Shown here in pieces: positions 5,276 through 43,011 of a stretch of DNA of 50,151 nt (its first letter is position 1; the number at the start of each line of letters is the position of its first letter). This DNA comes from Acidobacteriota bacterium. Lineage in GTDB: Bacteria; Acidobacteriota; Vicinamibacteria; Fen-336. The DNA lies in the NCBI GenBank assembly GCA_003223555.1, contig QHVM01000069.1, positions 1 to 50,151 on the forward strand. The letters are read 5' to 3'. The notes under the pieces are model-generated. The model had not been told where the DNA came from, searched no databases, and worked only from the letters and a program-made list of their open reading frames with translations. The position numbers were made by a program, and so were the translations under genes.

Positions 5276-5743
5276 CTAACGGCGGGCTTCGGGGCGCGAC
5301 GAACGAGCGGTGCAGGAGCGGCAGAAGCCGTAGATCTGGTGCCGGTGGCCCTCGATGGCGAAGCCGATGTCGGCCGCGATCTCGTCCTGCAGCCGCTCGA
5401 TCTCGGGCGAGGTGAACTCGAAGATCGCCCCGCAGGACTTGCAGATGAAGTGGTCGTGGTGCTCGCGCTTGTAGTCGCGCTCGAAGCGGCTCTCGCCGTC
5501 CAGGGCCAGCTCCTGGGCCAGGCCGGCCGCCTGCAGCAGCTTCAGCGTGCGGTAGATGGTGGTGCGGCCGATGTCGGGCCGGCGCCTCTGCACGAGCTGG
5601 AGGAGATCGTCGACCGACAGGTGGCGGTCGGAGCGCAGGAACGTGTCCAGGATCGCCTCGCGCTGGTCGCTCCGCTTCAGGTGGTTCTTGGCGAGGTAGG
5701 CGTCGAAGACGTCCTTCTCCTCGCGCCGCACGCTGTTCTTCAT
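5276..5743 (-). CDS. Fur-family metal-dependent transcriptional regulator
   Basis: 155 residues from ATG 5743; a TTG two codons earlier (5749) is possible but less likely. Winged helix at about 20-85 with recognition segment DIGRTTIYRTLKLL. The dimerisation domain carries the HHDHFICKSCG zinc/metal segment and a second CxxC (CRSC) near the C terminus, as in Fur, PerR and Zur. The sequence does not say which metal is sensed. A strong promoter precedes it (5754-5783). It is the first gene of a two-gene unit with the racemase-type enzyme, an unusual partner for a Fur protein. Confidence 0.92.
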   Translation of the reverse strand: MKNSVRREEKDVFDAYLAKNHLKRSDQREAILDTFLRSDRHLSVDDLLQLVQRRRPDIGRTTIYRTLKLLQAAGLAQELALDGESRFERDYKREHHDHFICKSCGAIFEFTSPEIERLQDEIAADIGFAIEGHRHQIYGFCRSCTARSSRPEARR

Positions 5744-5753
5744 GGGCAAGGCC

Positions 5754-5783
5754 AGACTAGCCCCCGCCCCGCGGGGCTGTCAA
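5754..5783 (-). promoter_or_regulatory. Sigma70-type promoter of the Fur-racemase operon
   Basis: On the minus strand: TTGACA (5783-5778), 18-nt spacer, TAGTCT (5759-5754), then 10 nt to ATG 5743. The -35 is a perfect consensus and overlaps the stop codon of the neighbouring nucleotidyltransferase gene, so a separate transcript starts there. Confidence 0.6.
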
Positions 5784-6850
5784 CGCTCCGCGGCTCGCTC
5801 CGGCCCGGGCGCGGCGTCGCCCGGCGCGCGCACAAACTGGAGGGTGCGGGACAGGCATTCGCGGATCTGGAAGGGCAGGCGGGGGCGATCGTCGAAGCGG
5901 CCCCGCCGCCCCACCGTCGCCTCCACCGGGTTCGGCCAGCGCATGCGCAAGGCGCGCAGAAGCCCCCAGGGACGGCGCAGCTCGGCGGCCATCGGCGTGC
6001 GCGTCCCGTGTGGCGCGAAGTCCGCCTGCCCCCATTGCCGCAGCACCGCGGGCACGAGCCAGCCCGGCAGCACGCGTTTCTCCAGGGGCGCCGGCAGGCC
6101 GCCGACCCGGGCGCCGAGAAGCTCGTGGGCCAGCCGGAGCGCGACGACCGCGGCCTCCGTGCGCGACGCGTCGCCGGCGACGAAGTAGCCCCAATCGAAC
6201 TCCAGCGGCCGGGCCTCGAGCAGCAACGCGAGGTCGCACAGCCAGACCGGCCGCCACGCCCCGTGGCGCATGAAATGCAGGGCCAGCAGGCGCAGGTGGT
6301 CCTCCGGCCCGAAGACGCGCACGGCACAGTCCCGCAGCGCCGCCACCTGCGACCGCGCGAACAGCTCCGCGGGCGGGCGGTCGTCGAGCTCCGCGAAGCC
6401 GCCGTGCAGGTCCACCGCGGCGCCGGGGGCCGGCGGTGCCTGGAGGGCGCGGCGGGCGGCGGCGGCGGCCTCGGGACCCACGTAGAGGTCGACGTCACCG
6501 TAGGGGCGCAGGCCGGGGCGCGGGTAGAGCCGGGCCACCGCCCAGCCCTTTCCCAGGACCGGCTCGATGCCCCGCTCCCGCAAGCGGGTGACGGCGGCCG
6601 GGATCTTCTGCTCGTGCAATGCCGCCTGCAGAGCGTGGAGGCGGAACGCCTGGTGGAGCGGCTCGAGGATCGAGTCGGACCCGGTGAGCCGCCGGGCGCG
6701 CCACCAGGCCAGGCCGCCGCTTCCGCCGCGCAGCAGCAGGGGCGCCGCTTCGCCGAGATCCGCGAGCTCGGCGGCGTCGGGGCTCGCGCGCCACGCGCCG
6801 CGCAGCACGCGGGCGACCTGCCGTCCTCTCGCTTCGGCGCCCCGACCCAC
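5780..6850 (-). CDS. Nucleotidyltransferase family protein of the HprK/PqqD cassette
   Basis: 356 residues from GTG 6850, preceded by GAGG and lying 11 nt after the stop of the PqqD-fusion gene. The region PVLGKGWAVARLYPRPG followed by RPYGDVDLYV matches the nucleotidyltransferase-fold family (NTP_transf_5 type), with the DxD metal pair in GDVDL. The rest is helical with several Trp and Arg residues and no membrane segment. Family members are poorly characterised and commonly sit beside HprK-like kinases and PqqD proteins. The transferred nucleotide and target are not known. It is the third and last gene of the cassette, with the Fur promoter embedded in its 3' end. Confidence 0.75.
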   Translation of the reverse strand: MGRGAEARGRQVARVLRGAWRASPDAAELADLGEAAPLLLRGGSGGLAWWRARRLTGSDSILEPLHQAFRLHALQAALHEQKIPAAVTRLRERGIEPVLGKGWAVARLYPRPGLRPYGDVDLYVGPEAAAAARRALQAPPAPGAAVDLHGGFAELDDRPPAELFARSQVAALRDCAVRVFGPEDHLRLLALHFMRHGAWRPVWLCDLALLLEARPLEFDWGYFVAGDASRTEAAVVALRLAHELLGARVGGLPAPLEKRVLPGWLVPAVLRQWGQADFAPHGTRTPMAAELRRPWGLLRALRMRWPNPVEATVGRRGRFDDRPRLPFQIRECLSRTLQFVRAPGDAAPGPERAAER

Positions 6851-6861
6851 GCCGCCTCGAG

Positions 6862-7413
6862 CTAGGGGGCGCAGCTGCAATTGTTCTGGTTTCCGACCTT
6901 CTTGCAGGTGGTGCCGGGAGGCGCGGGGTTGGGGCCGGTCGTGCAGCAGGGCGCCCCGGTGCAGAGGCGGTTCTGGAGGCCGCTGCACGTCGTCTGCGGG
7001 GTGCAGGTCGCGGCTTGCGCCGCGGCGGGCGCGGTGATCGACAGGACGGAGAGCGAGAAGCCGCCGAGGGCGGCCGCTCTCTTGAGCCATTCCCGCCGCG
7101 AGCCCAGGCGCGGCCCCGCGGGAAGCGCGGTCCCCGCTTCCAGCAGCCGGGCCCGCCCCAGCCGCCGGAGCGACAGCCAGACCGACTCCACCGGCACGGC
7201 CTGCCCCAGCTTCGCGGTGACGCGCGCGGCGATCTGCGCCGCGGAGCGCCGGCCGTTGCAGGCCTCCCACACCGCCGCCGCCACCGGGCCCAGGCAGTGC
7301 GCCTTGTGACGGTCGGTGTCGTAGACGAGCATCTCCTCGGGCAGCTCCTGCACGACGAGCCCCTCCTGCCTCTTCCGCGGCCGCCCCCCGTCTTGCTTCC
7401 CCTGCTTGCTCAT
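6862..7413 (-). CDS. PqqD domain fused to an internal Tat-like signal and cysteine-rich tail
   Basis: 183 residues from ATG 7413, which has a GAGGGG ribosome-binding sequence. Residues about 18-95 are a PqqD-type winged-helix domain (VYDTDRHKAHCLGPVAAAVWE, RLGRARLLEAG), the fold that binds leader peptides in RiPP pathways. Then comes SRREWLK (105-111), close to the twin-arginine consensus SRRxFLK, a hydrophobic stretch (113-128) and AQA (132-134), a possible signal peptidase site. The last 47 residues hold eight cysteines (137, 143, 151, 156, 157, 170, 179, 181), with a CC pair and a final CSC. The layout implies a cytoplasmic recognition domain and an exported or peptide-like tail. Function unknown; it could be a carrier-fused RiPP-like precursor or a tethered metal/disulfide peptide (inference). 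Confidence 0.8.
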   Translation of the reverse strand: MSKQGKQDGGRPRKRQEGLVVQELPEEMLVYDTDRHKAHCLGPVAAAVWEACNGRRSAAQIAARVTAKLGQAVPVESVWLSLRRLGRARLLEAGTALPAGPRLGSRREWLKRAAALGGFSLSVLSITAPAAAQAATCTPQTTCSGLQNRLCTGAPCCTTGPNPAPPGTTCKKVGNQNNCSCAP

Positions 7414-7433
7414 CGCTCGCCCCTCGCTCGACC

Positions 7434-8171
7434 TCAGCTCGCCGCCTCGAGCAGCCGGGCGGCGGTCTCCTGCGCCTCGCCGCGGCGGCCCTTGACCGCC
7501 GGCGCGCGGGAGACGACACGCTCCAGCGTGGCCATCGCCGTGACGGGATGGCTCCGGGCGACGACGGTGTGGGCGAGCAGCTCGAGCAGCGCCCGACCCG
7601 GGGTCAACGCCGCCGGCCGCCAGCGCGAGCCCTCGTCGTAGCGCGCCAGGGCCACCAGGCCCACGGGCAGCGGCTCTCGGCCGCGTTCCGCGCCCAGCTC
7701 CTCCGGCGCGATCCGGCGACCGACCTCGTCCCCGTTGCGCAGCTGGAGGGCGCGCGGGAACGGGTGCACCCGGCCCCGCCGGTCCAGCACCGCGTACTCG
7801 TCCGAGTAGTAGCTGGCCCCCGCCCTGAGGAGCGCGGCCACCAGCGTCGACTTGCCGGCATGGCTCGTTCCCGGGACGAGGATCGCCTTGCCGTTCCAGC
7901 CCACGACGCCCGCGTGGACGAAGAGCCGCCGGGGCGCCATCTCCGCCACCGCCTGCTGGAGGTGGTTCTCGAGGACCGCGAGCGCCTCGCCCAGCTCGGT
8001 GGTCCGGACGAGCCGCTGCGCTCCGGCATAGAGAAGGTGGAGCCGGCGAAGGCGGCCCGCGCCGCCGCCGACGACGAGGGACAGCAGGTGATCGACGAGG
8101 GGGCGGGGGCGAAGCTGCGACCCCGTGGGCAGGCGCGATGCGACCTCGCCGAGAACGGAGGCGTCGCTCAC
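7434..8171 (-). CDS. HprK-like serine kinase/ATPase
   Basis: At least 245 residues. P-loop GTSHAGKST follows VHAGVVGWNGKAILVP, and YYSDEYAVLD comes next, the arrangement of the HPr kinase/phosphorylase fold. Long forms of HPr kinase have a DRTGG-type N-terminal domain; this one is short, like the HprK-related proteins that accompany PqqD-like chaperones. No HPr or PTS gene is in the window. GTG 8171 is the first ordinary start, but coding similarity continues upstream: ISFTAYGARIGVRV is in frame at about 8210-8171 and belongs to the family. The frame is open back to a TGA at 8249-8247, and an ATG lies in the same frame at 8291. Either a CTG start (8246) is used or a nonsense codon has removed the original start. 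Confidence 0.78.
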   Translation of the reverse strand: MSDASVLGEVASRLPTGSQLRPRPLVDHLLSLVVGGGAGRLRRLHLLYAGAQRLVRTTELGEALAVLENHLQQAVAEMAPRRLFVHAGVVGWNGKAILVPGTSHAGKSTLVAALLRAGASYYSDEYAVLDRRGRVHPFPRALQLRNGDEVGRRIAPEELGAERGREPLPVGLVALARYDEGSRWRPAALTPGRALLELLAHTVVARSHPVTAMATLERVVSRAPAVKGRRGEAQETAARLLEAAS

Positions 8172-8246
8172 GCGGACGCCGATGCGCGCGCCGTAGGCCG
8201 TGAAGCTGATGCCTCCCGCCCACCCGAGGCGGTCGATCTTCTGCAG

Positions 8247-8551
8247 TCAGGTCGAGGGCCGGCGCAGGCGCGGCACGGCGGCGGGGTTCATGGCGCAAAG
8301 GATCGCATGGCCTCCGCATCGACCGCAATCGGCCTGTGCGCCGACGCACAGATGGCGCGGCCCTCTTCCGGCAAATGCACCCTGGACGAGGGGCGATCTT
8401 CCCGATCTGCTCGCCGGCGCTAAAGCCAAGTCCCCTTGTTTACAGTGATTTAACCGTACCAGGGCCGAGCACGCGTCTTGCATTGAAGGGTGGCCGCGAT
8501 CTTTGACACCCGGTGGCAAAGCGGCTACCGTGTCGCAGTCGGAGGATGGAC
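8247..8551. other. Intergenic region between the HprK-like gene and the secreted protein gene
   Basis: About 300 bases without a supported gene. It holds the possible lost N-terminus of the HprK-like gene (ATG 8291, TGA 8249), a locally AT-richer patch at about 8420-8460 and the promoter at 8503-8531. No RNA gene or repeat was recognised. Confidence 0.5.
8503..8531 (+). promoter_or_regulatory. Sigma70-type promoter of the secreted two-repeat protein
   Basis: TTGACA at 8503-8508, 17-nt spacer, TACCGT at 8526-8531. A GGAGG at 8541-8545 follows, 6 nt before ATG 8552. The -35 and spacer are ideal; the -10 keeps the TA...T pattern. Confidence 0.55.
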
Positions 8552-10048
8552 ATGTCGAATCGGCTGAAGGCCCTGGGCCTGGCAGCGGTCGTGGGCGTGG
8601 CGGTGATGGTCCCCCTCTACGGCGATCCGCGCGCCGGGGCGGTCGAGCACGGCGAGTGGGCCCGCATGCTCCTGCGGGCGGTCGAGATGGAACGGGCGGT
8701 GACCCCCTCTTCCTCCGACGCCCAGGTCTTCGCGACCCTGTCCTGGAAGAGCAGCCTCGCCTTCCGGGCCGACGCCTACCTCCGCGGCGACGGCGTCGAC
8801 GTGGTGGGCGCGGCCGGGGCGCGGCGCGTCGTCGCCACCTCCGCCGCCGGGGAGGTCGCCTATCCCCTGGCGGTCATGACGGGCGGAGACTATCGCCTGC
8901 GCGTGCGGATGGCGGGCAACCCGGCGGCTCCCGCCTCGGCGGAGATCACGCCGCTCGGCGGACGCGGACCGGCGGCCACCTTCACGCTCGTGCCGTCCTC
9001 GCTGACCGGCTGGGTCGACGCCGGCGCCGCCCACCTGGATCCCGGGGCCTATACCGCATCCCTCCTTCTCCCCGCCGGCACGTCGCTGGAGAACCTCGAG
9101 GTGGCGCCACCCTGTACGGAGGCCATCGAGCCGCCGGGAGGCTGGCGCTCGCGGGCGGTGACGCGGGCCGAGGAGGTCGCGGTCACCGCCGTCAAGGCAC
9201 TCGACAAGGAGTCGGAGCTGCCGGCCGCCGACAGCCCCATCGAGGTGCACGCCTCCTCGATGAAGGCCACCCGCGGTGCCGCGGCGAGCGTGGCCGCGCT
9301 CGGAGCCGCGCCGGCGACGGACGGCCTGTGGCTCAAGGCGGGACCCCGGGGGCTGCAGGCGATCGTCTTCGTGGACCTGCCGGCGGCCGGGCTCTACAGC
9401 CTCTCCGTGTTCGGCGACGCGGGCGCCGGCCAGAGCTGGAAGGCCGACGCCTGCCGCAAGGCGGTCTGGTGCGGCGCGGCCGCGCCGGCCCCCTCCGGGG
9501 CGCCGGCATGGCACGCGCTCATGACCGCGGCCTTCGGCTCCGGCCGCCATTTCTTCAACGTGACGCTGGCGCCGGGCGCCACCGTGGAGCGGCTGCGCGC
9601 GGAGCGGAAGAACGACAGCCCCGGCGATTACGTGGCGACGCTGCGGCGCATCGGCTTCGACGTCGGGGCCGGGGGACCCATCAGCCGCGTTCGCGCGGTC
9701 GACGCGATGCAGTTCATCCGCGAGCACCGGAGGGAGATGGCGGGTACCTGCGGTGACATCGTCCCGTCCCAGGTGGCCGACGGCGGCCTGGCCCAACCCG
9801 CCCCGCTGGCCGGACCCGGCGCCGCCCCAGGCTTCTCGGGCGCGGGCCCGGGCGGAGGGCCCGTCGTGCCCCTACCCGGACCGGCCCCGGTTCCGCCCGT
9901 GACCACCCCCACCACGACCCCGGCCGGACCGCCGGCGACCCTGCCCACCGTGCCGTCACCGGCCCCGGTGCCCACGCCGGTGCCGGTTCCGCCGACGATC
10001 CCGTCCCAGATTCCGGGCAGCCCGGTCCTGCCCTCGTCGACGCCGTAG
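8552..10048 (+). CDS. Secreted protein of unknown function with two related beta-rich repeats and a Pro-rich tail
   Basis: 498 residues. ATG 8552 was chosen over 8546 because GGAGG at 8541-8545 is correctly spaced. Residues 1-30 look like a signal peptide (LKALGLAAVVGVAVMV). Two segments, about 100-187 and 260-352, share a pattern: GdYrLrV or GLYSLSV, then a tryptophan and hLdpG or GSGRHFFNVTL, ending in LPAGTSLENLEV or LAPGATVERLRA. This suggests an internal duplication of a beta-sandwich. From about residue 413 the tail is Pro/Gly/Thr-rich (PVPTPVPVPP), probably a disordered wall- or surface-exposed stalk. I do not recognise a named family. It ends 9 bp from the convergent wzc-like gene, so a role in the envelope polysaccharide is possible but unproven. 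Confidence 0.75.
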   Translation: MSNRLKALGLAAVVGVAVMVPLYGDPRAGAVEHGEWARMLLRAVEMERAVTPSSSDAQVFATLSWKSSLAFRADAYLRGDGVDVVGAAGARRVVATSAAGEVAYPLAVMTGGDYRLRVRMAGNPAAPASAEITPLGGRGPAATFTLVPSSLTGWVDAGAAHLDPGAYTASLLLPAGTSLENLEVAPPCTEAIEPPGGWRSRAVTRAEEVAVTAVKALDKESELPAADSPIEVHASSMKATRGAAASVAALGAAPATDGLWLKAGPRGLQAIVFVDLPAAGLYSLSVFGDAGAGQSWKADACRKAVWCGAAAPAPSGAPAWHALMTAAFGSGRHFFNVTLAPGATVERLRAERKNDSPGDYVATLRRIGFDVGAGGPISRVRAVDAMQFIREHRREMAGTCGDIVPSQVADGGLAQPAPLAGPGAAPGFSGAGPGGGPVVPLPGPAPVPPVTTPTTTPAGPPATLPTVPSPAPVPTPVPVPPTIPSQIPGSPVLPSSTP

Positions 10049-10057
10049 TCGCTTCGC

Positions 10058-12151
10058 CTACTTCTTTACGGCGGCGACCGGTTTCGGGCGGGGCTTGGCC
10101 GCTCGTCCCTCGGCCTCCGGAGTGTGCGGGTAGTAATAGTAGTAATAGCCCTTGGCCTTCATGTCGACGGCGTTCAGCACCGCCCCGAGCACGTTCGGCG
10201 TCACCTTGCGCAGCGCGTTGACGCTCCGCCGGATGAGCTTCTTGTCGACGTTGTTGTGCTCCACGACATAGACGACCAGGTCGGCGTGGCGGGCGAGCAG
10301 GAGCGCGTCGGTCACCGAGGCCACCGGGGGAGCGTCGACGAGGATCCACTCGAAGTGCCGGCGGAGGTGGTTCAGGAAGTCCGCCATCTGCTTCCGGGCC
10401 AGGATGGCGGGCGGGTTGGGCGGCAGCGGCCCCGCGGTCAGCGCGAAGAGGTTGGGCACCCGGGTGGCCCGGATCAGGCTGTCGAGGTCGGCGTGGCGGA
10501 CGAAGAAGTCGGTCACCCCCGGCTCGCGGGTCAGGCCCAGGCGGGCGTGGAGCTGCGCCCGCCTCAGGTCGAAGTCCGCCGCCACCGCCTTCTCCCCCGA
10601 TGACGCCAGCAGCTTGGCGATGTTGACGAGGGTGGTGGTCTTGCCCTCCTGGGGTGCGGTGCCGGTGATGAGCACGACCTGGCCCGTCTCCTCGCGGCGG
10701 CCGAAGATGAGCGAGGTGCGCAGGTTCTGATAGGCCTCGGTCACGAGGTGCACGTTGGCCTCGTCGTACTTGGGCACCGCGGCCAGCAGGTCGAGGCGCA
10801 GGTAGCGCTCGACGTCCTCCGGCCCCTTGACCGTGTTGTCGAGGTAGTCGCGGGCGAAGACCAGGCCGACCCCGAGGGCCAGGCCGAGGGCGAGGGCGAT
10901 GGCGGCGATGCGGCGCTTGGCCGGCCGCACCGGCGAGCCGGGCGGGGAGGCGCGCTCCACGACGCTCACGTTGTTGTTGCGGATGGAGGCCGCGATGTCG
11001 GTCTCGTTGAGCTTCTGGAGCAGCACCTCGTAGAGGCTGGTCGCCGACTGCTCCTCCTTCTTCAGGATCTCCAGCTCCGAGGCCTTCCGGCTCTGGGTGG
11101 CCGCCTGCGACTTCTGCCCCTCGATCGCCGAGCGGAACTCGGTCTCCCGCTTCTCGAGCTGGGCGTACTCCGCCCGCAGGGCGTCGACGATCTGCCCGAA
11201 GCGGGCCTCCCGCGTCTTGCGCAGCTCGGCGACCTGGGCCTGGGCCTTCTGGACCTCGGGATGGCCTTCCTTGTACTTCTCCCGCAGCTGGGAGAGCTGG
11301 AGGTTCAGCGTGGCGAGCTGCTCGTTGAGGCTGCCGATCATGGTGTCGGTCGCCATCTGGGGCACGGTCTCCAGGCTCTCTCCGCGCCGGCGCTTGTCCT
11401 CCACCTGCTTGATCGCCGCCTCCAGGGCGATCCGGCGCGTCCGGGCGGCCAGGTAGTCGTCGTTGAGCTTGGTGATGGAGGTGGTGACCGCGGAGACGCT
11501 GCCCTCGGGCACGAACAGGTCCTGGCCCTGGTAGCCGGCGACGAGCTTGGTGCGAGCCTGCCGCATCGCTTCCTGGGTGGCGGCCAGCCGCTCCTGCAGC
11601 CAGTCGTAGGCCTGCCGCGCCGCCTGGACCCGCGCGGCCAGCGACTGCTCGATGTAGACGTCGGCCAGGGCATTGGCCCACTGCGCCGCTTGCCGCGGGT
11701 CCTCGTGGGTGACGAGGATCCGCACCAGCCGGCTCTCCGGGACGGGGTCGATGTCCACGTGGGCCATGAGCGTCCCCCCCGGATCGGCGTTGTCCGTGAA
11801 GGGCGAGCGGTCGGACAGCTTCAGCCGCTCCACCACCTTCTCGCCCACGCCGCGGGAGTGCAGGATCTTGAACTGCGTGTTGTAGAAGTCGGCGTTCTGG
11901 TAGTAGCTGCCCCCGCCCACCAGGGCGTCGGAGACGCTCATGAAGGTCGGGGTCGGGGGCTCGATCTGCAGCAGGACCGCCGCCTGGTACTGCGGCGTCT
12001 GCAGGAAGCCGGCCAGCAGGCCCAGGCCCAGCCCGGCCAGGGTCGCGGCGAGGATGAGCGCCCGACCGCGCCAGACGAGGTCGAGGTAATAGCGCAGGTC
12101 GAACGGGATGTCGGAGGGACCGGCGGCCGCGCTCGGGGGGAGGGGCTGCAT
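10058..12151 (-). CDS. wzc: Wzc-type polysaccharide copolymerase / tyrosine autokinase
   Basis: 697 residues with the full BY-kinase layout: Wzz domain with membrane helix at about 32-50, long periplasmic coiled-coil region (180-380), second helix at 414-433, then the cytoplasmic kinase. EAYQNLRTS (472-480) precedes Walker A GTAPQEGKTT (497-506), Walker A' AADFDLR (524-530) and Walker B WILVDAPP (602-609). The C terminus has six consecutive tyrosines (669-674), the autophosphorylation cluster. Such proteins set chain length and control export of capsular or exopolysaccharide by cycles of Tyr phosphorylation; no matching phosphatase gene is visible nearby. It is the last gene of the leftward export operon, 7 bp after the wza-like gene. 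Confidence 0.95.
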   Translation of the reverse strand: MQPLPPSAAAGPSDIPFDLRYYLDLVWRGRALILAATLAGLGLGLLAGFLQTPQYQAAVLLQIEPPTPTFMSVSDALVGGGSYYQNADFYNTQFKILHSRGVGEKVVERLKLSDRSPFTDNADPGGTLMAHVDIDPVPESRLVRILVTHEDPRQAAQWANALADVYIEQSLAARVQAARQAYDWLQERLAATQEAMRQARTKLVAGYQGQDLFVPEGSVSAVTTSITKLNDDYLAARTRRIALEAAIKQVEDKRRRGESLETVPQMATDTMIGSLNEQLATLNLQLSQLREKYKEGHPEVQKAQAQVAELRKTREARFGQIVDALRAEYAQLEKRETEFRSAIEGQKSQAATQSRKASELEILKKEEQSATSLYEVLLQKLNETDIAASIRNNNVSVVERASPPGSPVRPAKRRIAAIALALGLALGVGLVFARDYLDNTVKGPEDVERYLRLDLLAAVPKYDEANVHLVTEAYQNLRTSLIFGRREETGQVVLITGTAPQEGKTTTLVNIAKLLASSGEKAVAADFDLRRAQLHARLGLTREPGVTDFFVRHADLDSLIRATRVPNLFALTAGPLPPNPPAILARKQMADFLNHLRRHFEWILVDAPPVASVTDALLLARHADLVVYVVEHNNVDKKLIRRSVNALRKVTPNVLGAVLNAVDMKAKGYYYYYYPHTPEAEGRAAKPRPKPVAAVKK
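10131..10148 (+). repeat. Two tandem copies of a 9-base repeat encoding the Tyr cluster
   Basis: The nonamer TAGTAATAG occurs twice head to tail (10131-10139, 10140-10148). On the minus strand it codes the tyrosine run at the end of the Wzc-like kinase, so slippage could change the number of phospho-acceptor tyrosines. Confidence 0.6.
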
Positions 12152-12158
12152 GACGCTC

Positions 12159-13091
12159 CTAGAAGATCCGGCGCGGCACGGTGACCACGTCGTTCGGAAG
12201 GAGCGGCGGATCAGGCTTCTTCCCCTTGCGCACGTCCTTGAGATCCACCGCGATGATGGTGGTCCTCCCCGTCTGGGAATCGATCCGACGCACCTGGACG
12301 TCGTTCTTCCCGAAGCGGGTCAGCCCCCCCGCGGTGGAGATGGCCCCCGTCACGGTCAGGTCGCCGTCCAGGACGTAACGGCCCGGGCGGTTCACTTCGC
12401 CCTCAACCGTAACATAGAACTTGGGAAGGGCCGTGATGATGTCCCCGTTGCGGAGGACCAGCTCCAGGTTGATCTGATCGATCGCGCTCGGGCTCGCGCT
12501 GCCGAAGCGGAGCCGCATCGTGCGGCCGCCGCCCTCGAAGGTGCCCTCGGCGCGGGCGATCGCCACCTCGCCCGAGGCGCGAGGGGTGAAGCCGCCGGCG
12601 TCGACGAGCACGTCGATGAGCCGCGTGCGGCCCCGCAGGCCCTTGCGCCCGGGGCTGTTCACCTCCCCGAGCACGGTCACGAACTGGCTCTGGTATTCCT
12701 TCACCTTCAGGTCGACCTGGGGGTTGACGAGGAAGTCCCGCGCGAGGAGCGAGGTCAGTTTCTGCTTGGCCTCGGCGACGGTGAGGCCGGCCACCGGCAC
12801 CTCGCCCAGCAGCGGCAGCGAGATCGCGCCGTTCGTCTGGACGGTCGTGGTGCGCGAGAGGTCGTCGTTGCCGAACACGATGACCTCCAGCACGTCTCCG
12901 GCGCCCAGGCGGTACTCGGGAGCCGGCGTGGGCACCGGCGCGGCGGCCACCGGGGGCGCGGGCGGCGTGGGGCTCGGCGCCCGGGGCGGGCTGGGGCTCG
13001 GCGTGGGAGAAGGGCGGCGGGGGGCCTGGGCCGCGGCGGTCACGGCGGCCAGCACGGCGAGGAGCGCGGCGGCCGGGCCGGGTCGGATCAT
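12159..13091 (-). CDS. wza: Wza-like polysaccharide export protein (SLBB domains)
   Basis: 310 residues from ATG 13091. Signal peptide (about 1-21, ending AAAQA), then a Pro/Ser/Thr-rich spacer (about 24-58) not usual in Wza. The polysaccharide-export domain starts at YRLGAGDVLEVIVFGNDD, followed by two SLBB-like modules (VTVLGEVNSPGRKGLRGR and VTVEGEVNRPGRYVLDGD). Wza-type proteins form the outer-membrane translocon that receives polymer from the Wzc complex. No lipobox cysteine is present, and the protein lacks the long C-terminal amphipathic helix of E. coli Wza, so outer-membrane passage may rely on the neighbouring beta-barrel (inference). It overlaps the upstream gene by ATGA. Confidence 0.93.
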   Translation of the reverse strand: MIRPGPAAALLAVLAAVTAAAQAPRRPSPTPSPSPPRAPSPTPPAPPVAAAPVPTPAPEYRLGAGDVLEVIVFGNDDLSRTTTVQTNGAISLPLLGEVPVAGLTVAEAKQKLTSLLARDFLVNPQVDLKVKEYQSQFVTVLGEVNSPGRKGLRGRTRLIDVLVDAGGFTPRASGEVAIARAEGTFEGGGRTMRLRFGSASPSAIDQINLELVLRNGDIITALPKFYVTVEGEVNRPGRYVLDGDLTVTGAISTAGGLTRFGKNDVQVRRIDSQTGRTTIIAVDLKDVRKGKKPDPPLLPNDVVTVPRRIF

Positions 13092-14722
13092 CGGCGCAGC
13101 GCCTCGCTGAAGAAGCCGATGCCGGCCTGGACGTAGAACGCGTGCGTCCGCTGGTCGAAGACGTCCAGGTTCGAGTCGCGGCGGTCCTGGCGATAGTCGG
13201 CGCGCACGAACAGCCAGCGGGTGATGCTGCGCCCCAGGCCGGCCAGCCAGTCGACGATCTGGTCGCGGCGGGGGACGCCCAGCGCGCTGGCCGCGGTGGG
13301 GTAGCGGTTCACGTGGTATCCGCCGCCGACGTTCAGGGCGAACGAGAAGGGCAGCGGCGCGGTCAGCGTCGACTGCACGGAGGTGGTCAGGTAGAACGCG
13401 TTGTGCTCGAAGGCCGACAGCTCGGTGGACCGGTTGGCGGAGAGGGTCAGGTGAGCGGCCCGCCCGAAGTCCCGTCGGACCTCGGCCCCGAAGCCGAGCC
13501 CGCGGAAGCGCTGGCCGGCCGCCCCCGCCCGCGGGCTCTCGCGCCGCATGTAGCCGGCGCTGATCCGGCCCGTCGTCAGGGGCAGGATCTCCCCATCGAT
13601 GGCGGCCCAGATCGAGTGGATCCTGGACTCGGCTTCGGGGCGCTCGCCAGTCGCCGGCACCTGCTCGAAGGAGTAGCCGAGGCTGGCCCGCCGGGCCGGG
13701 CCGACCTCCACCCCCAGCGCTGCCGCGGCGCTCCGCCGCTCGTAGGCGAAGAAGCCCGACCCCTCCGCCACGCTCACGCGGTCGTCGGCGCCGTCCAGAT
13801 CGAGATCGAAGCGTCCGGTGGGGTTGAAGCGGGCGCCGCCCCCGAAGCGCTTGCGGGTGAAACGGCCGAGGCGGAAGAAATACTCGCCGCCGGGATCGAC
13901 CTCGGACGTCTCCAGCAGCCCGCGGGCGAAGTGTCCGTGGCCGCGCAGGGTGACGAAGGGGCCGGTGGGGAGTTGCAGGTTGCCGTTCGCTTCGTGGCTC
14001 ACGCCGTTGACGGGCTCGAAGGACGAGAATCGCCGGATCCGCGCCTGGTAGTCGAGCCGCAGGTAGCCGTCCTCGCGCACGGGCAACTCGATCCCCACCG
14101 ACGACCGTGCCTCGGCATAACGGTCCCGCACCGGCTGGGCCGTCTCGAGGAGCGAGACGTCCGCGTCCACGTAGCTGAGCGTCGCGGCGGGCCGCACGGT
14201 AAAGATGCCCACCGCGAGCCCGGGCGCCTTCTCCACTTGAGGGCGCTCCACGGGCGGCACCCCGCCGGGAAAAGTCGCCTGTCCTCCTCCCGCCTGCTCG
14301 CTGGCCTCGATGGAAGGCGGGAAGAGGCCATGGTACAGGTCGGTCGACGACGGCGGAGCCGCCGCCGGCAGCGGGCTGGGGTCGGGACGCGCGCCGAAGA
14401 TCAGCGCCAGGCGGTCCAGCTCGCGGCGTAGCTCGTACGACACGTCGGGGGCCACGCGCATCCGCAGCCGCACGCCTCCGGCGGTGCGCTCGAGGCGGAT
14501 GGACTGCAATGGAGCCGCCGCCGCGGGGGCGGCGAGCGTCTCCGGCGCCGAGGCGGCCAGGCTGACCACGACCTCCGGGCCCTCCCGGCGCACGGCCACC
14601 TCGCCGAGGGCTCCCGCGGCCACCGCCACCACGGAGGGCCGTCCCTCGAGGGTCTCGCTCCGCAGCTCCAGGAGCCGCGGCGGGGCGGCGGCCGCCCAGG
14701 CCAGCAGGAGGAGCGCGCTCAT
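13088..14722 (-). CDS. Outer-membrane beta-barrel protein with N-terminal AMIN-like domain
   Basis: 544 residues from ATG 14722. Short signal sequence (MSALLLLAWAAAA), then about 90 residues resembling an AMIN domain (LLELRSETLEGRPSVV to ELDRLALIFG), a Pro/Ala-rich linker, and from about residue 180 an alternating polar/aromatic pattern with many Tyr, Phe and Arg residues ending in YVQAGIGFFSEALRR, as in outer-membrane barrels of exopolysaccharide loci. Probable function: outer-membrane channel or anchor paired with the Wza-like protein; this rests on position and topology, not on a known catalytic motif. Linked to both neighbours by ATGA overlaps, so it is translated with the export machinery. 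Confidence 0.8.
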   Translation of the reverse strand: MSALLLLAWAAAAPPRLLELRSETLEGRPSVVAVAAGALGEVAVRREGPEVVVSLAASAPETLAAPAAAAPLQSIRLERTAGGVRLRMRVAPDVSYELRRELDRLALIFGARPDPSPLPAAAPPSSTDLYHGLFPPSIEASEQAGGGQATFPGGVPPVERPQVEKAPGLAVGIFTVRPAATLSYVDADVSLLETAQPVRDRYAEARSSVGIELPVREDGYLRLDYQARIRRFSSFEPVNGVSHEANGNLQLPTGPFVTLRGHGHFARGLLETSEVDPGGEYFFRLGRFTRKRFGGGARFNPTGRFDLDLDGADDRVSVAEGSGFFAYERRSAAAALGVEVGPARRASLGYSFEQVPATGERPEAESRIHSIWAAIDGEILPLTTGRISAGYMRRESPRAGAAGQRFRGLGFGAEVRRDFGRAAHLTLSANRSTELSAFEHNAFYLTTSVQSTLTAPLPFSFALNVGGGYHVNRYPTAASALGVPRRDQIVDWLAGLGRSITRWLFVRADYRQDRRDSNLDVFDQRTHAFYVQAGIGFFSEALRR

Positions 14723-15831
14723 CGCGTCGCACCCCGAGGCTGCTTGCGCCGCTCGAAGAAGAGCAGGATCAGGATCGCGGCGATGAAGGCGACGAACTGG
14801 ACGAGGATCAGGAGCGTCTGGCCCAGGGTGGCGTCGGTCAATGAAGCCGCGCCGAGGCCGAGGGCGAACGTCACCAGGTAGAGGAACAGCACCGCGGCCC
14901 GCTGCGAGAAGCCCAGCGAGAGCAGCCGGTGGGAGAGGTGCCGGCTGTCCCCGATGTAGACCGGCCGGCGCTCCTTCACCCGGATGGCGATGACGGTGGC
15001 GGTGTCGAGCAGGGGCAGGGCCAGCACCACCACCGGCATGAGGACCGGGAAGAGCGAGCTGGAAGCATGGGAGACGTAGCGCTCGAGCAGCGTCAGCGAG
15101 CCGAGGGTGAAGCCGATGAAGAGGCTGCCGCAGTCGCCCAGGAACACCGTCGCCGGGTGGAAGTTGAAGAGCAGGAAGCCGAGCAGGCTCCCCATGAAGG
15201 CGACGAGCATCAGGCTGATGAAGAACTCCCCGAGCGCCCAGGCGTTGATGAGGAAGACGCCCGAGGCCACGAAGGCCACCCCCGCGGCCAGGCCGTCCAT
15301 GTTGTCGAGGAGGTTGAAGGCGTTGGTCACTCCCACCAGCCAGACGAGCGTCACCAGGACGTTGAGGGCCTCGCTGGGCATGAACGACGTGCGGACGCCG
15401 GCCGCGACGAGCATGACCGCGGCCGCGAGCTGGCCGGCGGCCTTGACTGCGACCGGGAAGCGCTTGCCGAGCACATCGTCGGCGAGGCCGATGCCGAAGG
15501 TGAGGGCTCCGCCGGCCAGGATGCCGAAGAGACGCGCCTTGACGCGGTAGGCCTCCTGCAGCATGGCCATCGAGGAGCCGAAGGTCGACTGCACCCAGGG
15601 CAGGCGTTGCAGGGCCGGCGCCAGCAGCGAGCCGGCCAGCACCACGGTGGTGAACGAGACGAAGACGGCCAGGCCGCCCATCCGCGGCATGGCCTGGACG
15701 TGGACCTTGCGGTGGCCGGGCTCGTCGATGACCCCGAACCGGCGGGCCGCGACACGGCTCGGCGGCACGAGGACCGCGCACAGGGCCGCCGTCGCCGTCA
15801 TGACGAGCGCCGCCAGCAGCACATGGTCCAT
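14719..15831 (-). CDS. MraY/WecA-family undecaprenyl-phosphate sugar-1-phosphate transferase
   Basis: 370 residues, about 10-11 membrane helices. Family motifs: RKVHVQAMPRMGG near the N terminus, GLADDVLGKRFP (the DD pair), NAFNLLDNMDGLAAG (catalytic Asp region), FLGDCGSLFIGF, and the cytoplasmic loop with DSRHLSHRLL (His-rich loop of the WecA type). It transfers a hexosamine-1-phosphate from a UDP-sugar to undecaprenyl phosphate and so primes the repeat unit on the inner membrane. The genes around it are exopolysaccharide genes and no murein cluster is present, so WecA-like rather than MraY function is expected. ATGA overlap with the downstream barrel gene. Confidence 0.93.
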   Translation of the reverse strand: MDHVLLAALVMTATAALCAVLVPPSRVAARRFGVIDEPGHRKVHVQAMPRMGGLAVFVSFTTVVLAGSLLAPALQRLPWVQSTFGSSMAMLQEAYRVKARLFGILAGGALTFGIGLADDVLGKRFPVAVKAAGQLAAAVMLVAAGVRTSFMPSEALNVLVTLVWLVGVTNAFNLLDNMDGLAAGVAFVASGVFLINAWALGEFFISLMLVAFMGSLLGFLLFNFHPATVFLGDCGSLFIGFTLGSLTLLERYVSHASSSLFPVLMPVVVLALPLLDTATVIAIRVKERRPVYIGDSRHLSHRLLSLGFSQRAAVLFLYLVTFALGLGAASLTDATLGQTLLILVQFVAFIAAILILLFFERRKQPRGATR

Positions 15832-17158: not shown

Positions 17159-18889
17159 TCACCTCGGGCTCGATGACCCGCTGGTGGGCACGACCCGTGA
17201 GCGCAGCTCGGATGCGGCGCGAGCCAGCGCGGGATGCGTCGGATCGAGCTGCAGGGCGTGGTCCATGGCCGCGGTTGCGCCGGGGACGTCTCCGCGGAGC
17301 AGGCGGGTCCACGCCCGATCGGCCCACGCCTCGCCCCAGGCCGGCCGCAGCGTCACCGCCCGGCCCAGGTCGCGGTCCGCCCATTCGAGCCGGGGGCCGG
17401 CGAAGCCTCGCCGGCCGACGGCCAGCTCGCGCCAGGCCAGGCCACGCGCGCGATAGCCGTCGGCCAGGTAGGGATGACGGACGAGGACGCGGTCGAGGGC
17501 GGCCACGAGCATCTGCGGGTCCGGATCGCGCAGCGCGCGGCCGAGGGCCACCGCCCCGGCCGACCGCCATGCGGCGGCCACGCAAAGCGCCAGCAGGAAG
17601 AGCGTGGCCGCGAAGCCCAGCGCGCGCCCGCCGACCGGACGGGGCGCCTCGCGGGGCGAGGCCGCCAGGCCCAGCAGCGACACGCACACCAGGGCGTTGG
17701 CCGGGAGCCGGAGGTTGAAGTCGAAGAGCGAGTGCACGGCCAGCGCCACCACCGCGCCCGCCGCTCCGACCGCGATGCCCTTGCGGAAGGGATCCCGGCC
17801 GTGGCGCAGGCGCCCGGCCAGGCGGCGGCCGGCCAGGGTGACGATCCACGCGACGATCGCGAGGCCGGCCAGGCCCGATTCAGCGAGCAGCTCCAGCGCA
17901 TCGTCCTCGGCGTGGGTCGTGCGCACGTCGCCGTGGCCGCGTTTGAAGGCCGGGAACGCGTCGGCGTAGGCGCCGAGGCCGGCGCCGAGACCGGGATGCG
18001 CGGCGAAGAGGCGTAGCGTGTCCCGGGCGACGTCGAGGCGGTAGTCGCCCGAGGCGCCGCCGCGGCCCTCGAGGATCGTGGCCAGGTGGGCGCGGGTGTC
18101 GGCGGGGACTACGGCGAGGCCGAAGCCCACCAGGACGAGCCCGCCCACCGCCAGGGGGACCAGCCGGACGCGGGCACCTTCGCGGCGCGACGTGGCGAAG
18201 GCCCAGAGGGCGCCCGCGACGAGCAGCCCCGCCACGAGCGCGATGAGGCCTCCGCGGCTGCGGCTGGCCAGATGGACGGCGGCCAGCCCGAGGCTGAGGC
18301 CGGCCAGCCCCACCACGCCCGGGGTGACGCCCCCGCGCAGCCGCGCGAGGCCCAGGGCCATGGCCGCCGACAGCACGACGGCCATCTCGACGAGGCCCGC
18401 GAAGTGGTTGTGGTTTACGTAGGAGCCGAACGGCGTGGTGACGATCGGCGAGGCCTGGCCGTAGATCCGCTCCGGGGCCAGCGACCACTGCGCGGCCCCG
18501 AAGACCGCCTCGGCGGCGCACACCGCGAGGACCGCCGCCGCCAGTCGCGTCGCCGCCGCGCGTTCCCGCCCGCGCTCGCTCCAGAAGACGAGGGCGCTCA
18601 TCATCGCCGCGGCAACCAGCACCGTCTCCGCCGTCCACTCCGGCGCCGCGCTGAGGCCGAGCGCGATCTGCACCAGCCCGAGCCCGGGCAGGGCGGCGGC
18701 GGCCAGGGCGATGAGGGGAAGCCCCTCGCCATCGACGGCCCGACCGAATGCGAAGAGCATCCCGCCGAGCAGGAGCAGGGCGACGAGGGCATAACGGGCG
18801 GGGTCGCCGGCGCTGCCGTAGGGCCAGGGCGCGGCGAGCAGCGCGGCCAGGAAGAGCGCTTCGCCGAGCGCCTCCAGCCGGCCCCTCAT
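17159..18889 (-). CDS. O-antigen ligase/polymerase-family membrane protein with C-terminal TPR-like region
   Basis: 576 residues from ATG 18889. About ten membrane helices in the first 440 residues; the large periplasmic loop contains YVNHNHFAGL, SRSRGG and HAEDDALELLAESGL, typical of the WaaL/Wzy superfamily. The last 120 residues (ALDRVLVRHPYLADGYRARG to HALQLDPTHPALARAA) look like two or three TPR motifs, an extension found in some O-antigen ligase-like proteins. The predicted role is to polymerise repeats or ligate glycan onto an acceptor on the periplasmic side. ATGA overlap with the asnB gene upstream; the last gene of the long leftward run. Confidence 0.88.
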   Translation of the reverse strand: MRGRLEALGEALFLAALLAAPWPYGSAGDPARYALVALLLLGGMLFAFGRAVDGEGLPLIALAAAALPGLGLVQIALGLSAAPEWTAETVLVAAAMMSALVFWSERGRERAAATRLAAAVLAVCAAEAVFGAAQWSLAPERIYGQASPIVTTPFGSYVNHNHFAGLVEMAVVLSAAMALGLARLRGGVTPGVVGLAGLSLGLAAVHLASRSRGGLIALVAGLLVAGALWAFATSRREGARVRLVPLAVGGLVLVGFGLAVVPADTRAHLATILEGRGGASGDYRLDVARDTLRLFAAHPGLGAGLGAYADAFPAFKRGHGDVRTTHAEDDALELLAESGLAGLAIVAWIVTLAGRRLAGRLRHGRDPFRKGIAVGAAGAVVALAVHSLFDFNLRLPANALVCVSLLGLAASPREAPRPVGGRALGFAATLFLLALCVAAAWRSAGAVALGRALRDPDPQMLVAALDRVLVRHPYLADGYRARGLAWRELAVGRRGFAGPRLEWADRDLGRAVTLRPAWGEAWADRAWTRLLRGDVPGATAAMDHALQLDPTHPALARAASELRSRVVPTSGSSSPR

Positions 18890-20769
18890 CCGAGGCGATG
18901 CCGGCGCAGCCACAGCTCCAGCGTCAGCAGTGTCCAGAGCTGGTGGCCGCGATCGCCGTGGCCGGAGAGGTGCTCGGCGTAGAGCCGCCGCACGGCCTCC
19001 GGTTGCAGCCAGCGGGCCAGGCGCGGACGGTCGAGCAGCAGGGCCTCGACGCGGCCCCTCAGCTCGCCGCGGAACCAGTCTCCGAGCGGCACGCCGAAGC
19101 CGTGCTTGGGACGATCCAGGATCTCGGGGGGCAGCAGGTCGGCCACCGCCTTCTTGAGCACGACCTTGCCCCGTCCCCCGCGGCGCTTGAGGCCGTCCGG
19201 CAGGGCCGCCACGTACTCGACGAGGGCGCGGTCGAGCATCGGGCTGCGCGCCTCCAGCCCGTGGGCCATCGTCATGCGGTCCATCTTGGGCAGGAGGTCG
19301 TCGAGCAGGTACGTGCGCGCGTTGAGGTAGAGCAGCCGTGACAGCAGCGACGCCTCCTTGCAGCGCTCCAGGGCCTGGCGGTAGGACGACAGCACGCGGT
19401 CGCGGTCGGCGACCAGCTCCCCGTCGAGCGCGCGCAGGGCCGGGAGGTCGAAGAACGTGCTCCAGGCGAAGATGCGCTCGTCGAAGGGAAGCGCCGCCTT
19501 TTCGGCGAAGCGCCGGAGCCGCCGCCGCGGGCCGTGATGGCTCGGCCCTTCCGGGAACAGCCGCGAGGCCGCCCGAAGCGCCCGGGCCAGGGGGCCGGGG
19601 ATGCGGTCGGCGATGAGCGCGGCGTGGAAGCGGTCGTAGCCGGCGAAGGTCTCGTCGCCACCGTCGCCGTTCAGGGCCACCGTCACCTGGGCCCGCGCCT
19701 CGCGGGCCACGAGGTACGTGGGCAGGGCCGAAGAATCGCCGAAGGGCTCGTCGTGGTGGTCGAGCAGCGTCTCCAGCAGCGCGCCGGCCTGGGGCCGCAC
19801 CACGGTGGCATGGTGGTCGGTGCCGAGGTGGCGGGCGACGCGCTCGGCGTGCGGCCGCTCGTCGAAGAAGGCGTCGCCCTCGAAGCCGACGGTGAAGGTG
19901 CGGACGCGGCCCGGCACGAGGCGCGCCATGAAGGCCGCCACCGCCGCCGAGTCGACGCCGCCCGAGAGCAGGAGGCCGAGCGGCACGTCGGCCACCAGCC
20001 TCTTGCGCACGGCTTGCATCAGCAGCTCGCGCACCCGCCCGGCCGCTTCGGGCAGGTCCACGGAGAGCGCCTCGCCCGCGGGCGGGAAGCGCAGGTCCCA
20101 GTACGCCCGGGGGGCGGCGACGCCGCCGGCGTCGGCCACCAGCAGGCAGGCGGGGGGCAGCTTGCGTATCCCCCGGAAGAGCGTGCGCGGCGTCGGCACG
20201 TAGCCGAAGGCCAGGTACTCCCCGAGGTTCTCCTCGGCCATCTCCACCGGCGCGCCGGCCGCGAGCAGGGCCTTGATCTCCGAGCCGAAGACGAGCCGGC
20301 GCTCGTCGTGCCAGTAGTAGAGGGGCTTCTTGCCGAAATGGTCCCGGGCCAGCACCAGCCGCCGCGCCCGCGCGTCCCACAGGGCGAGGGCGAACATGCC
20401 GTCGAGGGCGGCCACCGCCTCGTCCCCCCGATCCTCGTAGAGGTGCGCGATCACCTCGGTGTCGCCGTGGGAGCGGAAGGCGTGCCGGCCCTCCAGGCCG
20501 CCGCGCAGCTCCTGGAAGTTGTAGATCTCGCCGTTGAGGAGCACGTGGACCGAGCCGTCCTCGTTGGCCAGCGGCTGGTCGGCGGCGGCGGAGAGGTCGA
20601 TGATCGACAGCCGGCGGTGGACGAGGCCGACCGACGGCGCCGCGGAGGCATCGACGTGATAGCCGTCCGCGTCCGGCCCGCGGTGGCGCAGCGCGTCCCC
20701 CATGGCCCTCAGGCCGGCCTCCTCGGGCGGCCGGCCGTCGAAGCTCAGGATGCCGGCGATGCCGCACAT
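18886..20769 (-). CDS. asnB: Asparagine synthase (glutamine-hydrolysing), glycan-locus type
   Basis: 627 residues. Starts MCGIAG, with Cys2 as the glutaminase nucleophile; RRLSIIDL and NGEIYN belong to the Ntn-type glutaminase domain (1-200). The synthetase domain has the PP-loop SGGVDS in LLLSGGVDSAAVAAF and GDGGDETFAGYDRFH. Known AsnB proteins make asparagine from aspartate with glutamine nitrogen; homologues within polysaccharide loci are thought to amidate uronic acids or other sugar carboxylates. The position between a YdcF-like gene and an O-antigen ligase favours the second role (inference). A second, divergent AsnB is at 47427-49301. ATG 20769 lies 7 bp after the preceding gene. Confidence 0.93.
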   Translation of the reverse strand: MCGIAGILSFDGRPPEEAGLRAMGDALRHRGPDADGYHVDASAAPSVGLVHRRLSIIDLSAAADQPLANEDGSVHVLLNGEIYNFQELRGGLEGRHAFRSHGDTEVIAHLYEDRGDEAVAALDGMFALALWDARARRLVLARDHFGKKPLYYWHDERRLVFGSEIKALLAAGAPVEMAEENLGEYLAFGYVPTPRTLFRGIRKLPPACLLVADAGGVAAPRAYWDLRFPPAGEALSVDLPEAAGRVRELLMQAVRKRLVADVPLGLLLSGGVDSAAVAAFMARLVPGRVRTFTVGFEGDAFFDERPHAERVARHLGTDHHATVVRPQAGALLETLLDHHDEPFGDSSALPTYLVAREARAQVTVALNGDGGDETFAGYDRFHAALIADRIPGPLARALRAASRLFPEGPSHHGPRRRLRRFAEKAALPFDERIFAWSTFFDLPALRALDGELVADRDRVLSSYRQALERCKEASLLSRLLYLNARTYLLDDLLPKMDRMTMAHGLEARSPMLDRALVEYVAALPDGLKRRGGRGKVVLKKAVADLLPPEILDRPKHGFGVPLGDWFRGELRGRVEALLLDRPRLARWLQPEAVRRLYAEHLSGHGDRGHQLWTLLTLELWLRRHRLG

Positions 20770-41725: not shown

Positions 41726-42304
41726 TCACTTGATGGCCTCGAGCTCGATATAGATTCCGCTTGCGCGTACCACGTAACACGCAAGCCGCTCGTAGGGGTC
41801 GATCCAGCGATTCGCCGCACGCTGTAGAATCGGCACGTGCCTCCACGGTGACTGCAACATCAATAGGCGATGCCGAATGCGATAGCGGGCTTGGGAGTAG
41901 AAGCCGTAAGCAGAGAATAACTCGGTGCCCTCGATGAGATAGTCGAAAGAACGCGCAGAAAGATGTGTCCGATGGGTCGGATCGACGTACGAGGCGACGT
42001 CTGAAAAGTGCGGTGTTAGAACTGCTACGAACCCGTTTGGTCTTAGAAGCCGATGCACTTCGGCTAGAACTGCAATTGGTTCGCTGACGTGCTCAATGAC
42101 GGAGAAGGCATATACGGCATCAAAGCTCGCGTCGGGAAAGGGATATGGACGTGAATTCAGGTCATGCGTAACGTCAGGATGCACCTCTGGTGAGATGTCG
42201 AGGGTTACTCCAAAGGCCTCGTCGCGCCCCGGGCCGATATGCAATACGCGATGGTCGCGTGCAAAGCTCCGGAGGTAATCCAGCCGTTCCCCCCAGAAAT
42301 GCAT
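41726..42304 (-). CDS. Class I SAM methyltransferase (type 11-like)
   Basis: 192 residues from ATG 42304 (a TTG at 42310 also fits). VLHIGPGRDEAFGVTLDIS replaces the common DxGxGxG loop, PDVTHDLNSRPYPFPDASFD and AFSVIEHVSEP follow, and LLRPNGFVAVLTPHFSD is motif III. Similar proteins are found in LPS and glycan islands. Base composition and codon use are clearly less GC-rich than the genes before it, suggesting transfer. It has no gene directly upstream on its strand. Confidence 0.82.
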   Translation of the reverse strand: MHFWGERLDYLRSFARDHRVLHIGPGRDEAFGVTLDISPEVHPDVTHDLNSRPYPFPDASFDAVYAFSVIEHVSEPIAVLAEVHRLLRPNGFVAVLTPHFSDVASYVDPTHRTHLSARSFDYLIEGTELFSAYGFYSQARYRIRHRLLMLQSPWRHVPILQRAANRWIDPYERLACYVVRASGIYIELEAIK

Positions 42305-42368
42305 GTCCAAGCCTATCCAAGCGTCTTCCTCGTCGTCAATCTTCTGTAGATGAGGGTAGATCAGTCAC

Positions 42369-42971: not shown

Positions 42972-43011
42972 CGGGTAGCGACTACAAACGGCTTTCGATC
43001 TCCTGACGGCG

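Follow-up and report, generated by a model that had tools for sequence, protein, structure and literature searches.

A possible overlooked family of modified peptides exported by Tat, suggested by an acidobacterial three-gene cassette

The closest described relatives of the cassette reported here are the kinases that tailor lasso peptides and the HPr-rel-A system. The HprK-like kinase BsfK phosphorylates Ser3 in the core of its lasso precursor and also accepts Thr; it is weak alone and strongly accelerated by the PqqD-type protein BsfB1, and a nucleotidyltransferase whose role is unknown belongs to the same cluster (PMC10368454). The peptide kinase PadeK phosphorylates a C-terminal Ser, and PsmN adds a hexose to the phosphate (PMC8498205). 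HPr-rel-A comprises HprK-related kinase A (TIGR04352), a PqqD family peptide chaperone (TIGR04353) and a nucleotidyltransferase. The same protein set is encoded in a stretch of 50,151 nucleotides from an Acidobacteriota bacterium (GCA_003223555.1, contig QHVM01000069.1; the window), where genes for a kinase of HprK/PEPCK fold, a protein joining a PqqD domain to a twin-arginine (RR) signal and a cysteine-rich tail (the PqqD-tail protein), and an NTP_transf_5 nucleotidyltransferase all lie on the minus strand, separated by gaps of 20 and 11 nt, which confirms the single leftward unit described in the initial annotation. In HPr-rel-A the PqqD and a protein with a twin-arginine translocation (Tat) signal are separate, whereas in the window they form one chain whose gene follows the kinase. 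The unit is best called a fused sister form of HPr-rel-A, with its kinase placed by comparison in a sister clade below the family cut-offs, and it suggests that a family of modified peptides exported by Tat has been overlooked.

Lasso tailoring by BsfK/BsfB1/BsfN (Bradymonas), PadeK (paeninodin) and PsmN (pseudomycoidin) likewise directs an HprK-like kinase, a PqqD-type recognition element and a nucleotidyltransferase at a precursor, but the window cassette lacks a lasso protease or cyclase and differs in its Cys-rich core, its Tat signal and a recognition element in cis. No B2 leader protease (PF13471) is encoded in the cassette, and the genome gave only a sub-threshold match on another contig (22.8 against 26 bits). 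Two Asn-synthase-type genes (18886-20769, confirmed by Pfam, and 47427-49334) are more than 10 kb away, among polysaccharide genes and glycosyltransferases, and such a gene was not kept beside the cassette in other genomes (1/20). Unlike the PadeK target, the tails do not generally end in Ser. A lasso peptide cluster was rejected for want of a B2 protease and an adjacent cyclase; the unit appears to work like a tailoring system for ribosomally synthesized and post-translationally modified peptides (RiPPs) while not belonging to the lasso class. With RiPPs that depend on a RiPP recognition element (RRE), as collected by RRE-Finder, it shares the RRE fold, a conserved leader and a hypervariable core. 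In the systems described in PMC7470986 and PMC12710340, however, the RRE is either a protein of its own or part of an enzyme, whereas in the window it sits on the putative substrate. The RiPP-like DUF2063/DUF2282 systems also export precursors that bear a signal peptide and are paired with an RRE-like protein (PMC12710340), but export there depends on Sec, and the RRE-like partner is not part of the precursor chain.

The initial annotation regarded the pairing of HprK-like kinases with PqqD proteins as an uncharacterised association. That does not hold for BsfK/BsfB1 and PadeK, which are experimentally studied lasso-precursor kinases (PMC10368454, PMC8498205); for HPr-rel-A, or PqqD with an HprK-related kinase, a search of open-licence papers found no literature, nor did it find any on Tat-exported RiPP precursors, both of which are weak evidence.

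Distribution of the cassette

A search of 396 Acidobacteriota genomes recovered the PqqD-tail protein at full length, tail included, in dozens of genomes, so that both halves of the chain are kept together in homologues. In 20 neighbourhoods the kinase and/or the nucleotidyltransferase stands beside nearly all copies, usually in the order kinase, PqqD-tail protein, nucleotidyltransferase. Because the whole architecture and gene order recur in this way, the unit is not a chance arrangement, and the window copy, which had been thought striking, is one member of a large family. Scanning genome records with organism names yielded 26 loci with the same neighbours, in several groups of Acidobacteria (Blastocatellia, Pyrinomonadaceae, Chloracidobacterium), three in Gemmatimonadetes and one in Myxococcales, some of them being genomes of the 396-genome set under their public names. 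The scan of genome contigs used an 8-row alignment, the 18-row alignment being too diverse, and is biased to closer relatives, which makes the observed spread a lower bound. The three genes form a unit conserved among soil bacteria belonging to three phyla. It looks sporadic in Myxococcota, where, of 189 genomes, 1 gave a kinase match, namely the seed.

Within Acidobacteriota, strong kinase matches (E <= 1e-40) occurred in 44 of the 396 genomes and strong PqqD-tail matches (E <= 1e-30) in 39, all of which are among the 44 (hypergeometric p 7.5e-49, relatedness not removed).

The PqqD-tail protein as a putative precursor

The initial annotation read the middle protein as a PqqD domain followed by SRREWLK, a hydrophobic stretch, an AQA site and a tail with eight cysteines, an architecture that we recover with small coordinate corrections. 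Pfam assigns residues 27-69 to PqqD (PF05402, E 2.4e-5, above the cut-off), and the model of the domain, with a predicted local distance difference test (pLDDT) score above 90 over most of its length, has the element order E-E-E-H-H-H. Its best solved match is the lasso B1 protein TbiB1 with leader peptide (5v1u/5v1v, template-modelling score TMt ~0.7; 0.70 for 5v1u), PqqD structures being among the best matches as well. In the model, the domain is thus an RRE of the PqqD/B1 fold, with three strands and three helices. In one relative (L104:5256-6155) the domain is split by about 100 residues of degenerate DGSRQ-like repeats that are read through in frame.

Behind this domain the twin arginine is kept in 66 of 66 scored sequences and never replaced by KR or KK. 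The commonest context is S-R-R-x-[VA]-[LI]-[KR], with Ser/Thr before the pair, hydrophobic residues at +2/+3 and K/R at +4, and is followed family-wide by a segment of moderate hydrophobicity and then a conserved Pro and A-x-A; the window protein has S105-R106-R107-E-W-L-K111, a moderately hydrophobic stretch and A132-Q-A134. By alignment, this is the invariant twin arginine in the Z-R-R-x-phi-phi context of Tat signals, and TatC is encoded in the same genome (G000:C57:7870-8502, E 7e-69). The signal is not N-terminal, beginning at residue 105 behind a confidently predicted domain. Tat signals keep their N-terminus on the cytoplasmic side, so that an internal signal is topologically allowed.

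The tail runs for 47 residues from its first cysteine, C137, to the end, with a cysteine spacing of 5-7-4-0-12-8-1. All 61 tails counted contain an even number of cysteines (6 in 36, 8 in 19, 10 in four, 12 in one and 4 in one), as do 25 of 25 representatives less than 50% identical to each other, and members beyond the count have 8, 2, 2 and 0. Since the number is even in every tail, we infer disulfides rather than thioether chemistry. Some relatives' tails resemble knottins (inhibitor cystine knots) in their C-C-CC-C-C spacing (e.g. 6-5-0-3-4) and give sub-threshold Pfam matches, but the likeness is one of spacing only, and the window tail has neither that spacing nor such a match.

As the initial annotation anticipated, the cysteines are conserved while the intervening sequence varies. 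Among close pairs (PqqD 85-99% identical), mean identity is 0.90 in PqqD, 0.92 in the signal and 0.57 in the tail outside the cysteines, and in 249 of the 250 pairs compared conservation is lower in the tail than in PqqD, the pattern of a conserved leader and hypervariable core expected of RiPP precursors. In one genome (L005), two tandem copies share 90% identity across PqqD and 33% across the tail outside the cysteines, and five genomes (G197, G009, G075, G259 and G400) carry three to six PqqD-tail copies each, some far from any kinase. Because many such genes accompany one kinase and tandem copies differ in their tails, the proteins look like a family of precursor substrates, not adaptors.

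A Ser or Thr immediately precedes the first Cys in 44 of 61 tails (72%, against an overall Ser+Thr content of 20%) and in 60% of the 25 representatives (p 1e-5). Divergent homologues free of cysteine (L048, L100, L101 and L108) have Thr/Gly-, Ser- or Pro/Lys-rich tails and retain PqqD, RR and the kinase, which argues that cysteine is not what the enzymes need. The Thr/Gly repeat tails of same-class relatives at L048:8109-8804 and L101:2593-3423 adjoin the same kinase and may be heavily modified Thr-rich substrates.

The nearest NCBIfam model to the kinase is TIGR04352 (HprK_rel_A; 67.9 bits, below the cut-off of 200), and its predicted structure (pLDDT 91.7) matches those of PEPCK and HPr kinase. 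The P-loop and catalytic residues H111, G131, K132 and D149 are invariant among 23 homologues, so that by alignment and model the protein is a member of the HprK/PEPCK fold with its active site. In the nucleotidyltransferase, the catalytic D-x-D and a third Asp are invariant among 19 homologues. A sequence search of the PDB with the kinase and nucleotidyltransferase profiles gave no matches.

Relation to HPr-rel-A and alternative readings

The window unit brings together PqqD, an HprK-like kinase, a nucleotidyltransferase and a small Tat-signal protein, as HPr-rel-A does, with PqqD and Tat parts fused; its PqqD has no match to TIGR04353 at E 0.1, and relatives reach 17-20 bits against a cut-off of 35. 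All six bona fide HPr-rel-A loci inspected, from Sphingomonas, Vibrio alfacsensis and four Acidobacteriota genomes and independent of the window family, have the order [small Tat-signal protein]-[PqqD]-[kinase]-[nucleotidyltransferase], or the same without a clear nucleotidyltransferase call. The Sphingomonas plasmid record, one with an annotated HprK-related kinase A, lists a 'hypothetical protein', an 'HPr-rel-A system PqqD family peptide chaperone', the kinase and the nucleotidyltransferase, and the hypothetical protein starts with the Tat signal TSRRMLMLGAVGASTVIAVRPALA. In Vibrio alfacsensis, the Tat signal SRRRFIRSAAISSPILLSIKSPSAWA is followed by a short open reading frame (ORF) at the PqqD position, the kinase and the nucleotidyltransferase. 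In the four Acidobacteriota loci whose kinases exceed the TIGR04352 cut-off (L155, L159, L166 and L171), a small Tat-signal ORF comes first, immediately followed by a separate PqqD-like ORF and the kinase; in L159 the PqqD between the other two was not resolved by profile. A further arrangement of the parts is found on a Shinella plasmid (L147:5055-8068), where an HprK-like kinase is fused to PqqD; in front of the fusion lie two Tat-signal proteins, one a Gly/Ser/Arg-rich peptide and the other an S8 peptidase. From this gene order, the PqqD-tail protein is best seen as an HPr-rel-A substrate fused to its PqqD chaperone. The split loci lend independent support to the initial annotation's idea of a substrate carrying its own recognition domain, for which the joint conservation of both halves, the constant RR and the even cysteines also speak; its reading is in part supported and strengthened, the export through Tat being our inference from the signal.

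We consider it rather probable, from sequence comparison and analogy, that the unit makes a small, disulfide-rich, exported peptide from a self-contained precursor modified by the kinase and nucleotidyltransferase, as a fused HPr-rel-A form. The precursor would consist of an N-terminal PqqD recognition domain, a Tat signal behind it, and then a signal peptidase site ahead of a variable core tail. Before export, while still in the cytoplasm, this recognition domain would dock its own chain to the HprK-like kinase, which would phosphorylate a tail Ser/Thr, probably the one before the first Cys (T136 in the window), since these residues are enriched there and, after cleavage at A-x-A, would occupy mature position 2-4, near the site of BsfK. 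The NTP_transf_5 enzyme would then add a nucleotidyl or sugar group to the phosphate. Directed to Tat by the RR signal, the chain would cross with its PqqD domain remaining inside, signal peptidase would cut after A-x-A and free a peptide of 25-60 residues to the periplasm or surface, and its cysteines would pair into disulfides.

Several observations weigh against this proposal. Tat signals do not usually follow a domain of 100 residues, and the hydrophobic stretch might instead be an anchor that is not cleaved. Not every tail has the proposed acceptor Ser/Thr (44/61 do), and six HPr-rel-A loci are a small sample. Kinase loci in three genomes (G078, G207 and G356) lack a recognised PqqD-tail gene in their vicinity; the same is true of L097, L098 and L099, full-length kinases of the window clade whose substrates were not found. 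A signal-only profile comparing fused with separate Tat signals found no significant homology (best E about 0.4), and the fused/split argument rests for that reason on gene order and architecture; a motif scan for the Tat signal was too loose, controls matching as well.

Were the hydrophobic stretch such an anchor, the middle protein could be a membrane-bound adaptor whose PqqD domain brings the kinase and nucleotidyltransferase to the membrane for another target, for example an exopolysaccharide intermediate, with the Cys-rich tail as an outside domain. The surroundings are in keeping with this: when ~17 kb round the cassette was compared with a control region on the same contig in 20 genomes, a WecA-type transferase lay within about 8.5 kb in 16 of 20 cassette loci and in none of 20 controls, and any of Wzc/Wza/WecA/Wzy was near in 19 and 1, respectively. 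Many of the 16 loci fall in one family (f31), which makes the effective number smaller, and the window and the f21 and f85 loci agree. The acceptors of NTP_transf_5 are not known, which also leaves room for an adaptor. We nevertheless regard it as unlikely: the tail diverges far faster than the remainder of the protein, several tail genes accompany a kinase, A-x-A is kept after the hydrophobic stretch, and the split HPr-rel-A form has ordinary-looking Tat proteins without PqqD. From this gene context, a function within the layer of exopolysaccharide or on it is plausible.

Less probable still is an exported peptide without chemical modification, in which PqqD, kinase and nucleotidyltransferase would serve as a proofreading and timing device for Tat, much as dedicated Tat chaperones do for other substrates, with the phosphate or nucleotidyl group placed on the PqqD part or on the signal. 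PqqD does lie directly upstream of the Tat signal, and both are conserved while the tails share no common sequence and some lack cysteine; however, known HprK-like kinases with PqqD-type partners modify the core peptide (PMC10368454, PMC8498205), and the excess of Ser/Thr before the first Cys also speaks for a modified tail. Conventional RiPP chemistry on the cysteines (thioether or other cross-links), which a Cys-rich core behind a conserved leader might suggest, is very improbable given the strictly even counts, a cassette with no cross-linking enzyme in Pfam or NCBIfam, and Cys-free homologues that retain the same kinase.

Extending the preferred reading of a modified precursor, we tentatively propose a hitherto unrecognised class of disulfide-rich peptides, phosphorylated and also nucleotidylated or glycosylated, whose precursors carry their recognition domain in cis and which leave through Tat and are used at the surface with or on exopolysaccharide; the Tat-signal proteins adjacent to HPr-rel-A may then be the missing substrates of that system. 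If true, this would name a likely substrate for HPr-rel-A, whose PqqD carries only a 'peptide chaperone' annotation. With the recognition element sitting on the substrate and not on the enzyme, it would also offer peptide engineering a ready-made design, and would add Tat as an export route for modified peptides without RiPP precedent in the literature found.

Coordinates and surroundings

The initial annotation extended the unit to 8291. An in-frame TGA at 8247-8249 rules out a kinase start there; because it closes the frame, the first codon beyond it being CTG, and the window's 'LQKIDRLGW' aligns with 'MEKLDRLGW' of homologues, the kinase probably begins at CTG 8246.

Table 1. Features of the cassette and neighbouring exopolysaccharide genes in the window
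Feature	Position	Strand	Details and basis
HprK/PEPCK-fold kinase	7434..8246	-	270 aa, probable CTG start
PqqD-RR-tail protein, proposed precursor	6862..7413	-	183 aa, ATG 7413 to TAG 6862
PqqD / RiPP recognition element domain	7135..7365	-	about residues 17-93; PF05402, model, TbiB1 structural match
Twin-arginine motif SRREWLK	7081..7101	-	residues 105-111; RR in 66/66 homologues, invariant alignment columns
Signal h-region, conserved AP at end	7030..7080	-	homologue alignment
A-Q-A (cut after residue 134), probable site for signal peptidase I	7012..7020	-	family-kept P-x(2-4)-A-x-A pattern
Proposed mature peptide, residues 135-183 (ATCTPQ...CAP)	6865..7011	-	eight cysteines, T136 just before first
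NTP_transf_5 nucleotidyltransferase	5780..6850	-	GTG start 6850; PF14907 E 4.4e-26; Asp pattern
Neighbouring exopolysaccharide genes, context outside cassette	10058..15831	-	Pfam
Wzc-type	10058-12151	-	Pfam
Poly_export/Wza-type	about 12159-13133	-	Pfam
Glycos_transf_4/WecA-type	14719-15831	-	Pfam

Directly downstream of the nucleotidyltransferase, on the same strand and about 36 nt from its stop, is a gene for a Fur-family regulator (5276-5743) that may be co-transcribed. On the other side, the cassette adjoins a divergently transcribed gene (8513-10048) for a protein of 511 aa that has a Pro-rich end and matches no Pfam family. The far end of the window (42000-50151) has a GC content of 0.61-0.66, against 0.70-0.76 elsewhere, and contains methyltransferase-like and Asn-synthase-type genes, possibly as acquired DNA within a polysaccharide cluster.

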